64,000 nucleotides of DNA from contig JAKADX010000016.1 in NCBI GenBank assembly GCA_021818505.1, forward strand, positions 1-64,000, given 5' to 3'. The position numbers and the translations under genes were made by a program. The stretch comes from Pseudomonadota bacterium (GTDB lineage: Bacteria; Pseudomonadota; Alphaproteobacteria; Acetobacterales; Acetobacteraceae). Shown here piece by piece: positions 43,962 to 50,992 of the stretch; positions within the stretch are counted from its first letter, which is position 1, and each line of letters starts with the position of its first letter. The notes beneath the pieces are model-generated. The model ran no database searches, had not been told where the DNA came from, and saw only the letters and a list, made by a program, of their open reading frames with translations.

Positions 43962-45677
43962 ATGCTAACGAGGAAGCAGGCGGTTATCGCCGGCGCGGCA
44001 ATTGTGCTCGGCCTGGCGTTCGGTCCGGCGCGGGCGCAGCCGGTGGACACGGCACGGATCGCCGCCGCAAATCCGAACGACTGGCTGACCTATCACGGCT
44101 CCTATAACAGCTGGAGCTACAGCGGGCTCGACCAGATCAATTCCAATAACGTCAAGGATCTGTCGGTTGCCTGGATCCATGTCCCCGGTAGGTCTACGCG
44201 CGGCCTGCAGTCGATGCCGCTGGTGGCCGATGGCATTCTGTACTACACCGGCTCCTACAGCCGCACGTTCGCGCTCGACGGTGCGACCGGCAAGCTGATC
44301 TGGTCGTATTTCCCCGAACTCGACGACGCGCTGGTCGCTCGGCAGACGCACTCGCCGTACAACCGCGGCGTTGCCCTCGGCGAGGGGAAGGTGTTTGTCG
44401 GCACCGTCGATGGCCGCCTGATCGCGCTCGACATGAAGACCGGCAAGCCGGTCTGGGACAAGAAGTTGCAGGATTCGGCCAAGCTGACGGTCGGGTTCAC
44501 CGGAGCGCCGCTCTATGCCAACGGCACGGTGGTGATCGGCAGCCAGGGCGGCGAGTGGCCGGGCCGCGGCCCGATCTATGGGGTCGATGCCGCGACCGGC
44601 AACGTCAAGTGGACGTTCCTGACGGTCGCCCCCGACGAGGAGACGAAGAAGACCTGGGGCAACGATTCCTGGCGCACCGGCGGCGGTGGCGGCTGGATGC
44701 CGGGCGGCTATGACGCGGCAAGCAACACGATCTACTGGGGCACCGCCAACCCGGCACCGCTGTATGACTGGGCCGGCAAGGACTGGATGACGACCGGCGC
44801 GCGCCCTGGCACGAACCTCTACACCACGTCGGTCCTTCGCCTGGACCTCGCGACCGGCAAGCTTGTCAGCTATCATCAGGAACTGCCGCACGACGAATGG
44901 GACTTCGACAGTGCGCCCGGCGAGTTCGTGATGCTCAATCGTGGCGGCAAGACCTACATCGTGCATCCGAACAAGAGCGGGTTCATCTTCGTCTATGACG
45001 AGAACCTGAAGGTTCAGAACGTCTACCCGCTGATCAAGAACTACAATTTCGTCAAGGGGATCGATCCCAAGACGGGCGAACTGATCGGGCGTCGCGCCAT
45101 GACGGCCGGCAAGCAGAGCGAGCCGCTGTGCCCGGCGATTGACGGCGGCATCAGCTGGAACCACGGCAGCTACAATCCCAAGACCGGCCTTTACTACAAG
45201 ATCGGCAACGAGTGGTGCATCGATCTGGAGATCGTCAAGACCACCCCGGTGACGCAGCCGGTGGTGCAGCTCAACATCGGGGCGAACTTCCACGAAGTGC
45301 CGCCTCCGGGTGGCCAGATCTACGGCCATCTTGACGCCATCGACCCGATCACCGGCGTCAAGAGCTGGGAGGTGCGCTTCCCCGAACCGCCGATGGCGAG
45401 CGTGCTGTCCACCGGCGGCAACCTGGTGTTCGTGCCCGACAGCCGCGGCATCATCCATGCATATGATGCGCGGACCGGTGCGGAACTGTGGAACCACAGC
45501 GACGGCACCGGCCACCAGGGCGGCATCGTCAGCTACATGGCGGGTGGCAAGCAGTACGTCGCCGTCACCGCCGGGTTCGGCGGCATGGTGAGCGACGGCT
45601 TCGGTGCCATGTTCGGCGAGCCGTACAAGAGCATGCCGCGTGACGAAGGGCTGCTGATCGTCTATTCGCTGAAGTAG
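43962..45677 (+). CDS. Periplasmic PQQ-dependent alcohol dehydrogenase with lanthanide-type metal site
   Basis: 571 residues. Signal peptide to ~25 (GPARA|QP), then an eight-bladed quinoprotein propeller with repeated Trp motifs (LDGATGKLIWSYFP; LDMKTGKPVWDKKL; VDAATGNVKWTFL; YDARTGAELWNHS). Metal/PQQ ligands line up with methanol dehydrogenases: Glu198 (SQGGEWPG), Asn263 (GTANPAPL), catalytic Asp314 and an extra Asp316 in HDEWDFD. The second Asp is the mark of lanthanide-dependent (XoxF-type) enzymes; calcium MxaF has Ala there. The vicinal Cys-Cys before NRG(V/L)A is absent (RQTHSPYNRGVA). GGGAGGA precedes the ATG. A cytochrome c and an XoxJ-like gene follow. Substrate unknown. Confidence 0.9.
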   Translation: MLTRKQAVIAGAAIVLGLAFGPARAQPVDTARIAAANPNDWLTYHGSYNSWSYSGLDQINSNNVKDLSVAWIHVPGRSTRGLQSMPLVADGILYYTGSYSRTFALDGATGKLIWSYFPELDDALVARQTHSPYNRGVALGEGKVFVGTVDGRLIALDMKTGKPVWDKKLQDSAKLTVGFTGAPLYANGTVVIGSQGGEWPGRGPIYGVDAATGNVKWTFLTVAPDEETKKTWGNDSWRTGGGGGWMPGGYDAASNTIYWGTANPAPLYDWAGKDWMTTGARPGTNLYTTSVLRLDLATGKLVSYHQELPHDEWDFDSAPGEFVMLNRGGKTYIVHPNKSGFIFVYDENLKVQNVYPLIKNYNFVKGIDPKTGELIGRRAMTAGKQSEPLCPAIDGGISWNHGSYNPKTGLYYKIGNEWCIDLEIVKTTPVTQPVVQLNIGANFHEVPPPGGQIYGHLDAIDPITGVKSWEVRFPEPPMASVLSTGGNLVFVPDSRGIIHAYDARTGAELWNHSDGTGHQGGIVSYMAGGKQYVAVTAGFGGMVSDGFGAMFGEPYKSMPRDEGLLIVYSLK

Positions 45678-45686
45678 CATGTGAAC

Positions 45687-45720
45687 ACCCGGGGGCGGCG
45701 CCGCCGCTCCCGGGTTTCTT
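45687..45720 (+). terminator. Strong hairpin between the PQQ dehydrogenase and cytochrome c genes
   Basis: ACCCGGGGGCGGC pairs with GCCGCTCCCGGGT (13 positions, one G-T wobble) around a GCC loop and is followed by TTCTT. It lies 10 bases after the stop, so it may end most transcripts and leave the cytochrome and binding-protein genes at lower levels. Confidence 0.7.
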
Positions 45721-45749
45721 CGCGGCCTGGATTTTTCAGAGCGAGTAGT

Positions 45750-46088
45750 ATGAAATTCCGCGTGACGAGAGTGATCGCGTCGGCGCTTGCCGTGACGCTG
45801 TGGTCTGTTGCGGCGATGGCGCAAACGCGTGAGGAGCCGGAGCCGAGATCGAACCTGAACGTGGAGGAACTGTTTTCCTCCACATGCGGCTTCTGCCATA
45901 TCGATGGCGGTCGGGAGGCCGGCCGCGGGCCGCAGTTGATGGATACGAAGCGCAGCGACGACTTCATCCGCAACCGGATCAAGAATGGCAAACCGGGCGC
46001 GATGCCGGCGTTCGGCGCGAGTTTCAGCGACGAAGACATCAACGCCATCATCTACTATATTCGTCACCTCAAGCCGGAGAAGGGATGA
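45750..46088 (+). CDS. Exported c-type cytochrome, probable electron acceptor of the PQQ dehydrogenase
   Basis: 112 residues from ATG 45750. Signal peptide ends about residue 24 (AAMA|QT). One heme site: Cys46-x-x-Cys49-His50 in STCGFCHIDGG. The distal ligand is probably Met85 in KPGAMPAFGASFS. The domain finishes SDEDINAIIYYIRHL, the usual class I cytochrome c helix. It lies between the dehydrogenase and an XoxJ-like protein, the position of cytochrome cL/XoxG in methanol-oxidation clusters, so electron transfer from the quinoprotein is the likely job. Its stop overlaps the next ATG. Confidence 0.88.
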   Translation: MKFRVTRVIASALAVTLWSVAAMAQTREEPEPRSNLNVEELFSSTCGFCHIDGGREAGRGPQLMDTKRSDDFIRNRIKNGKPGAMPAFGASFSDEDINAIIYYIRHLKPEKG

Positions 46089-46873
46089 CCCTGATGATGC
46101 CACACCGCCAGCTTCGTGCGCTGCTCGTTGGTGCGGTGCTGGCCGTGCTGGCCGTGGGCGCGGCGGATGCGCGAACCCTCGAACAGATTCGCGCCAGCGG
46201 CTCGATCGGGCTGTGCGTCCATCCCAATTCGCTGCCGTACGCCAGCAAGACCGCTGACCCTCCGGGGTTCCAGATCGAGATGGGCCGGGCGCTGGCCAAG
46301 CAGCTCGGGGTGTCGATGACCCCGGACTGGATCCTGATCGCCTATCAGGTGCCGCGCGCCGAGTGCGACATCCTGCTCGATATGATACACGAGCCGGAGG
46401 CGATGGATTTCGGCATCAAACTGACCAAGCCCTATTATCACAGCGGCGTCGGGCTGGCGGTGCCGGCGGACAGCAAGATCGCGTCGTTCCATGACCTCGA
46501 TGCCCATACCAAGGTGGCTGTGCAGACCGGGTCGCTCGTGGCGATGACATTGAGCAAGCGCCACATCCCGATCTCGGTCTTCGGTTTCGAGGACGACATG
46601 CTGGCGGCGCTCGCCACGCATGAGGTGGATGCCGCGGCAGTGACGCCGATTTCGATCGAGTACTACAATTTGCGCCATCCGGACGCGAAGCTGAAGGTTG
46701 TTCAGCCCGACGAGAGCGAGCATGACCTGGTGTGGAACATCGCCGTCGGCATGCGCCGTCCCGATGCGGCGTTGCGCGGCGCCATCGAGGCGGCGCTCGA
46801 CCGCCTGCGGGCCGATGGTACCATGGCCGCCATCTACGCCCGGTATGGCGTGACCCTGACGCCACCTAAATAA
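46085..46873 (+). CDS. XoxJ/MxaJ-like periplasmic binding protein associated with quinoprotein dehydrogenases
   Basis: 262 residues starting at ATG 46085 in the previous stop (ATGA). Signal peptide ends about residue 29 (GAADA|RT). It is a type II solute-binding fold: LEQIRASGSIGLCVHPNSLPYASK, GFQIEMGRALAKQLGVS, DFGIKLTKPYYHSGVGLAVP, KVAVQTGSLVAMTLSKR, then a C-terminal lobe ending RADGTMAAIYARYGVTL. Proteins of this group sit next to mxaF/xoxF dehydrogenases and help their maturation or activation rather than feed an ABC transporter. No ABC genes lie nearby, which agrees. Confidence 0.85.
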   Translation: MTLMMPHRQLRALLVGAVLAVLAVGAADARTLEQIRASGSIGLCVHPNSLPYASKTADPPGFQIEMGRALAKQLGVSMTPDWILIAYQVPRAECDILLDMIHEPEAMDFGIKLTKPYYHSGVGLAVPADSKIASFHDLDAHTKVAVQTGSLVAMTLSKRHIPISVFGFEDDMLAALATHEVDAAAVTPISIEYYNLRHPDAKLKVVQPDESEHDLVWNIAVGMRRPDAALRGAIEAALDRLRADGTMAAIYARYGVTLTPPK

Positions 46874-48062: not shown

Positions 48063-49784
<1,722 letters not shown>

Positions 49785-49789
49785 TCGCC

Positions 49790-50992
49790 ATGCCGGGATT
49801 CGCTTCCCGCCTGGAGCGCGCGCGCGTTGCCGCCGCGGTGGCGATGACGGTGCGCGCGCGCGAATTGCGCGCCGCCGGCGCGGACGTTATCCAGCTCACC
49901 ATCGGCGAGCCGGATTTTCCCACCCCGCCACACGCGATCGAGGCAGCGCATCAGGCGGCACTGCGCGGGGAGACCAAGTACCCGCCACAGGACGGTACGC
50001 CGGCGCTGAAGACCGCCGTGCAGCGCAAGTACCGCCGCGAGCACGGACTGGACTTCGCGCCTGATCAGATCGTGGTCGGCCACGGCGGCAAGCAGGTGAT
50101 CTTCGATGCGCTGCTCGCAACCGTCGAGCATGGCGACGAGGTGCTGATACCAGCACCTTATTGGTCGGCCTATGCGCTGATGACGCACACCGTCGGCGGC
50201 ACGCCGACCTTCGTGAACTGCCCGCAGAACAACGGATTTCGTCTGCGTCCCGAAGACCTCGACGCCGCGATCACGCCGCGCACACGCTGGCTGTTCCTCA
50301 ACTTCCCGAACAATCCTTCGGGCGCCGCGTGCTCGCGCGCCGAACTGGCCGAGATCGGCCGCGTGATGCTGCGCCATCCGCATGTCTGGATTCTCTCCGA
50401 TGATATGTATGAACACTTGGTCTATGACGGCTTTGAATACGCCACGCTCGCGGCCGTGGAGCCGCGTCTGGCTGATCGCGTGCTGACCGTCTCCGGCGTC
50501 TCCAAGACCTATGCGATGACGGGCTGGCGCATCGGGTTCGGCGTGGGGCCGCGCGACCTGATCCGGGCCATGGCGAACATGCAAGGCCAGGCGACTGCCG
50601 GCGTTTCCACCGTGGGCCAGGCCGCCGCCGCGGCCGCCCTGGATGGACCGCAGGATCTGATCGCCGAGCGCGCAGCCATCTATCGCGCGCGGCGCGATCT
50701 GGTGGTGAACATGTTGAATGCCGTCCCCGGCCTCGCTTGCCACAAGCCCGAAGGCACTTTCTACGTCTTTCCCAACATCGCCGGATGCCTCGGGCGCACG
50801 AGCGCGGGCGGGCGGGGTATTGCGACCGACGAGGATTTCGCCACCGCACTGCTGGAGGAGCAGCACGTCGCAACGGTGCACGGCGCTGCGTTCGGCATGA
50901 GCCCCTACCTGCGCATCTCCTACGCCACCGACACCGCCGCGCTGGAACAGGGCTGCCGGCGCATCGCTGCCTTTGTGGACGGGTTGCACTGA
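49790..50992 (+). CDS. Class I aminotransferase, second of a tandem pair
   Basis: 400 residues, clearly homologous along its length to the preceding gene, with which it shares GGKQVIxxA, QNNGF, DDxYExLVYD, [12 protein letters not shown], HKPEGxFYVFPxIxGC and [13 protein letters not shown]. The PLP Lys lies in [18 protein letters not shown]. The N-terminus differs (FASRLERARVAAAVAMTVRARELRAAGADVIQLTIGEPDFPTP), with a longer gap after the PLP region, so the two may differ in substrate. Tandem duplication followed by divergence is the simple explanation. A double-GNAT gene follows within about 12 bases. Confidence 0.9.
   Translation: MPGFASRLERARVAAAVAMTVRARELRAAGADVIQLTIGEPDFPTPPHAIEAAHQAALRGETKYPPQDGTPALKTAVQRKYRREHGLDFAPDQIVVGHGGKQVIFDALLATVEHGDEVLIPAPYWSAYALMTHTVGGTPTFVNCPQNNGFRLRPEDLDAAITPRTRWLFLNFPNNPSGAACSRAELAEIGRVMLRHPHVWILSDDMYEHLVYDGFEYATLAAVEPRLADRVLTVSGVSKTYAMTGWRIGFGVGPRDLIRAMANMQGQATAGVSTVGQAAAAAALDGPQDLIAERAAIYRARRDLVVNMLNAVPGLACHKPEGTFYVFPNIAGCLGRTSAGGRGIATDEDFATALLEEQHVATVHGAAFGMSPYLRISYATDTAALEQGCRRIAAFVDGLH

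Follow-up and report, generated by a model that had tools for sequence, protein, structure and literature searches.

We report that the DNA analysed here, a stretch of 64,000 nucleotides (hereafter the window), encodes a PQQ-dependent dehydrogenase that combines a complete lanthanide-type metal site with the absence of the vicinal Cys-Cys pair, and that this enzyme belongs to a clade which is apparently uncharacterised and widespread. Judged from sequence comparison, we favour with some reserve the reading that it works in the periplasm as a PQQ dehydrogenase and probably uses a lanthanide, that a Thr-His loop would cap its cofactor and that its own cytochrome c would accept the electrons. The features on which the analysis is built are collected in Table 1.

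Table 1. Features of the dehydrogenase and its two downstream partners, with positions in the window.
Feature	Position	Strand	Basis
PQQ-dependent dehydrogenase, 571 aa	43962..45677	+	ORF and translation; Pfam PQQ PF01011, E=6.6e-60
Sec-type signal peptide of the dehydrogenase	cleavage likely after ARA, residue 25	+	translation
Q128-T-H-S-P-Y133, replacing the vicinal Cys-Cys region	44343..44360	+	alignments to PedH, XoxF, MxaF
Glu198, metal ligand	44553..44555	+	sequence; alignment
Asn263, metal ligand	44748..44750	+	sequence; alignment
Asp314-Phe-Asp316 (D-x-D), catalytic Asp and extra lanthanide-type Asp	44901..44909	+	sequence; alignment
Asp314 alone	44901..44903	+	
Asp316 alone	44907..44909	+	
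Cys390, half of the conserved structural cysteine pair	45129..45131	+	alignment; subgroup-A rows
Cys419, partner of Cys390 in that pair	45216..45218	+	alignment; subgroup-A rows
Small periplasmic cytochrome c (CGFCH), probable electron acceptor	45750..46088	+	Pfam Cytochrome_CBB3, E=2.6e-14
Periplasmic solute-binding-type protein, MxaJ/XoxJ-like	46085..46873	+	Pfam SBP_bac_3, E=5.2e-13

Metal site and proposed capping loop

Pfam, the structure model and the fold search agree on the eight-bladed propeller with PQQ repeats that marks the PF01011 superfamily. The AlphaFold model (mean pLDDT 91.1) finds its best solved match in PedH (6zcw; TM 0.86, 34% identity), which has the closest fold of the solved structures and is also one of the closest in sequence, and the protein scores 429.8 bits against TIGR03075, the methanol/ethanol PQQ dehydrogenase subfamily, below the curated cut-off of 480 bits. 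Glu198, Asn263, Asp314 and Asp316 coincide in the alignment with the metal-ligand positions of PedH (6zcv/6zcw), XoxF (6oc5, 6dam) and MxaF (4tqo), the last of which has Ala at the Asp316 position, and the complete lanthanide-type set that a first-pass annotation had read from the sequence is thereby upheld. Arg135, Thr180, the GGGG-W stretch and Lys338 are kept in the alignment as well, so the PQQ contact residues are retained. Measured against the lanthanide-dependent alcohol dehydrogenases XoxF and PedH/ExaF, the protein thus has all four metal ligands and lacks the vicinal Cys-Cys.

The stretch before the NRG motif reads ARQTHSPYNRG in the window protein, RPCCDVINRG in PedH and VMCCDTVNRG in XoxF. 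Since the alignment is ungapped from QTHSPY to NRG, Thr129 and His130 occupy the positions of the two cysteines, as the same annotation had proposed in stating that QTHSPY replaces the pair. It had also asked whether the pair might be shifted rather than absent, and a shift is ruled out because C390 and C419 are the only cysteines of the mature protein. Both align with conserved XoxF/MxaF cysteines, and we take them to correspond to the C386-C415 structural bridge of methanol dehydrogenase. In the window's own subgroup (subgroup A, below), 58 of 58 non-identical proteins carry QTHSPY unchanged; in an alignment with 33% of its columns invariant, no invariant run is longer and only GFTGAP equals it in length. 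The missing pair is thus neither a chance substitution nor a sequencing error. A degenerate pseudogene is likewise ruled out by the intact frame together with the invariant loop. The model is comparatively uncertain around the proposed capping loop, where the block 121-130 has a mean pLDDT of 74.

The clade, its subgroups and their gene neighbourhood

Among the genomes searched from this genus and family, four relatives at 55-85% identity were found, and a single scan of named genomes returned 80 loci from Bradyrhizobium, Acetobacteraceae, Reyranella, Vineibacter, Microvirga, Tistlia, Betaproteobacteria, Rokubacteria and others. Two plasmids of Rhodococcus qingshengii (Actinomycetota) also carry a subgroup-A dehydrogenase, 66% identical to the window protein. 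A 59-row tree places the clade, with 100% support, on a stem of 0.75 changes per column, separate from XoxF/MxaF, PedH, the haem alcohol dehydrogenases and the sorbose types, while a 171-row tree again recovers it as one clade with 100% support, within which subgroups A, B and C each form one group. The window protein therefore groups neither with XoxF nor with PedH/ExaF (type 2b), and the earlier suggestion of a divergent subgroup with a changed PQQ face is borne out by a fully supported, long-stemmed clade in two trees. No description of the clade was found in the open papers searched, and the classification of Keltjens (2014) may already hold it as an unnamed or numbered type.

Among the 87 clade rows, some of which duplicate a gene, every one lacks the Cys pair and keeps D-x-D, counting three in which automatic scoring misread HDVWDFD strings; the Asn ligand is kept in all members and the Glu in all but one (Skermanella, with Asp). 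The position of the second cysteine of the cap always holds a flat ring, namely His in A, Tyr or Phe in B and Phe in C. Subgroup A carries the invariant QTHSPY, and in 59 of 59 rows its only cysteines are C390 and C419. Subgroup B has an extra Cys-Cys right after the metal Glu (GGELSGCCGP; L082-L098, L100 and other B loci), and a model of this subgroup reached a pLDDT of 90.4. Subgroup C has an extra Cys-Ser-Cys just before Thr180 in the FTGAP context (L099, L103-L107), with a CxxC just before the same conserved threonine in a member from a Skermanella plasmid (L127). Judging by their place in the chain, the cysteine pairs of B and C would face PQQ. Together with the even cysteine counts in A, B and C, these pairs might suggest that the capping disulfide has been relocated in the fold rather than lost, a reading that we consider extremely unlikely and that is inapplicable to the window protein, because subgroup A, the window protein included, has the C390/C419 pair only. 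It is conceivable, though on balance doubtful, that the whole clade is of the lanthanide type and has lost the disulfide, with the PQQ environment rebuilt in three ways, by a Thr-His cap (A), a Cys-Cys in the metal-Glu loop (B) and a Cys-x-Cys before Thr180 (C), each with its own cytochrome c.

The cytochrome c gene starts 72 bases 3' of the dehydrogenase stop, and the start of the MxaJ/XoxJ-like gene overlaps the cytochrome stop (ATGA). The binding protein scores 59.9 bits against TIGR03871, below the curated cut-off of 212 bits. Every one of the 52 subgroup-A loci covered by enough sequence has the dehydrogenase, cytochrome c and binding protein together; the profile missed a few of these cytochromes, which were identified by eye. 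These loci span Bradyrhizobium, Acetobacteraceae, Reyranella, Microvirga, Tistlia and a Rhodococcus plasmid. The subgroup-A gene order is a miniature xoxFGJ arrangement. In subgroup B a cytochrome is present in nearly all loci and no binding protein adjoins, so that the Cys-Cys after the metal-ligand Glu is found only in the subgroup lacking the binding-protein gene. In subgroup C, five of six loci encode the binding protein together with a cytochrome whose haem motif is CTGYCH or CTFYCH; this CxxxCH motif, one residue longer than usual, is seen in the cytochrome downstream of the dehydrogenase at L099, L103, L104, L105 and L107.

Outside close relatives, no other neighbour of the clade gene is conserved. 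The upstream genes for a P450 and an acyl-CoA ligase were considered as a clue to the substrate and set aside, as they lie next to the clade gene in one close relative only (L034). A different substrate, as suggested by the first-pass annotation, is possible. A TonB receptor was likewise rejected as a member of the unit, being represented by a truncated copy on a Rhodococcus plasmid and one weak match elsewhere. On that Rhodococcus qingshengii plasmid (L126, 12001-16177; NZ_CP054209.1) the genes for cytochrome c, the binding protein and the truncated TonB receptor come after that of the dehydrogenase, and the unit apparently came from a Gram-negative. Between the window dehydrogenase and the cytochrome c, one terminator-like hairpin was found (45710-45730) where 2.0 were expected, which is not significant. 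Further downstream, the window holds a tandem of two similar aminotransferase genes of class I/II (48417-49784 and 49790-50992).

SoxYZ-like factors have been tied to Cys-Cys PQQ enzymes (PMC12997753). A SoxYZ-like gene lies within about 5 kb of a XoxF gene in three of the four genomes having one, and none lies on a contig that carries the clade gene. The window genome has its own XoxF5-like gene on another contig (C7; L003), and it is this gene, not the window dehydrogenase, that a SoxYZ-like gene and a full-scoring XoxJ adjoin, an arrangement that fits the published tie.

Metal use, cofactor binding and a possible mechanism

The first-pass annotation regarded D-x-D without the Cys pair as an unusual combination for an XoxF/Exa-type enzyme, and this did not survive a wider count. 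In a sample of 109 PQQ dehydrogenases from the 36 clade-bearing genomes, which is not a census of the superfamily, D-x-D is present in 107. The Cys pair is present in 78 (76 with D-x-D and two with D-x-T) and absent in 31, all of which have D-x-D and which fall into several separate groups: 10 belong to the window clade, 17 to a group with HxTxRG and WDWD motifs and four to neither. Parsimony on the 171-row tree gives three changes of Cys-pair state. Escherichia coli Gcd likewise has WDMD, a D-x-D motif, and no Cys-Cys anywhere in its sequence. D-x-D without the Cys pair is thus common at the scale of the superfamily, and the distinctive thing is the window clade. The window's genome holds a second such enzyme, one of the HxTxRG/WDWD group (L002; G000:C38:69860-71446), a group that is widespread in the searched genomes, and on one Rokubacteria contig (G443:C251, 20751 bases) three different PQQ dehydrogenases lie close together.

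A 2025 study (PMC11996626) reported D-x-D for the membrane glucose dehydrogenase (m-GDH), which it called metal-promiscuous, and for most of the members in 14 of 17 families. E. coli Gcd, which works with Mg/Ca (PMC11996626), is not a strict lanthanide enzyme. D-x-D is the default of the superfamily, so it is no proof of lanthanide dependence by itself, and because it is so widespread the main rival to the lanthanide reading is a calcium/magnesium or metal-promiscuous enzyme resembling m-GDH, in which the second Asp would be ancestral and would not dictate lanthanide use. We hold this to be rather unlikely, given that the clade keeps the full PedH/XoxF ligand set (Glu to Asp in Skermanella only), unlike Gcd, and that PedH is the nearest structure.

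The protein could also be an 'empty' quinoprotein which has lost PQQ binding and taken on another role. It matches TIGR04528 (acido-empty-quinoprotein group A) at 270.7 bits, below the cut-off of 650, and it has Ser at the position of the PQQ-neighbouring Asn of methanol dehydrogenase, which we take to be Asn387/394. That it is empty is nonetheless very unlikely, as the metal ligands and the PQQ contact residues named above are retained, TIGR03075 gives the better score and the cytochrome c is always co-encoded in subgroup A. PqqE is found above cut-off in 36 of 36 clade-bearing genomes, compared with 27 of 142 sampled from the class. As proof of PQQ use this co-occurrence is weakened, since every one of the 36 genomes holds other PQQ dehydrogenases, and the PqqE signal is therefore confounded. 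A PQQ-free role is unlikely because the contact residues are kept and PqqE accompanies the clade.

Returning to the reading of a loop-capped, probably lanthanide-using enzyme, PQQ would sit in the usual site, as in PedH, next to a lanthanide ion (or with lanthanide at least favoured over calcium), and Asp314 would act as the base in alcohol or aldehyde oxidation, with Asp316 as the extra metal ligand. The Thr129-His130 loop would cap PQQ in place of the disulfide; His262 of the membrane glucose dehydrogenase has a similar PQQ-capping role. With no disulfide to relay them, electrons from PQQH2 would then be passed to the cytochrome c encoded alongside, and the MxaJ/XoxJ-like binding protein may help maturation, as proposed for MxaJ and XoxJ.

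The role of the vicinal disulfide above PQQ is unsettled: it may be an electron relay to the cytochrome, a clamp on the cofactor, or neither. A clade with a lanthanide-type site and a dedicated cytochrome c, lacking the disulfide and having sister subgroups with cysteine pairs elsewhere, offers a direct comparison, and the three-way rebuilding, if true, would make the disulfide dispensable for lanthanide-PQQ catalysis and electron transfer. The analysis also carries a warning, in that D-x-D is so common among PQQ dehydrogenases as to be weak evidence for lanthanide use by itself.

Comparison with known systems

The sorbose-dehydrogenase type (4cvb, 4mh1, 7wmd, 9m2c) shares 25-28% identity with the window protein and resembles it in the lack of a Cys pair in 9m2c and 7wmd, the two alignments seen; these two have D-x-E rather than D-x-D, and 9m2c is without the Glu and Asn ligands. 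The HxTxRG/WDWD group (L002) comes closer, with no Cys pair, four lanthanide-type ligands and a loop His, but it has a shorter loop and groups with the sorbose-dehydrogenase types, outside the window clade. E. coli Gcd also has D-x-D, no Cys pair and a His in its capping loop (QHVTCRG). Unlike the window protein, it is without the Glu and Asn ligands in the alignment and is anchored in the membrane, and it passes its electrons to ubiquinone.

The XoxF5 methanol dehydrogenase, with XoxG and XoxJ, has the same ligand set and the same order of dehydrogenase, cytochrome c and MoxJ-type binding protein, whereas the window protein is about 33% identical to it, is without the Cys pair and has no SoxYZ-like neighbour; the window cytochrome has only 112 aa and the binding protein is far below the TIGR03871 cut-off. 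PedH/ExaF, the lanthanide-dependent ethanol dehydrogenase (PQQ-ADH type 2b), resembles the window protein in fold, in the Glu-Asn-Asp-x-Asp site and in the Gln at the Glu55 position (RGQQAQP / RGLQSMP), whereas the window protein lacks the vicinal cysteines, lies outside the PedH clade and is encoded with its own cytochrome c and MxaJ/XoxJ-like gene.
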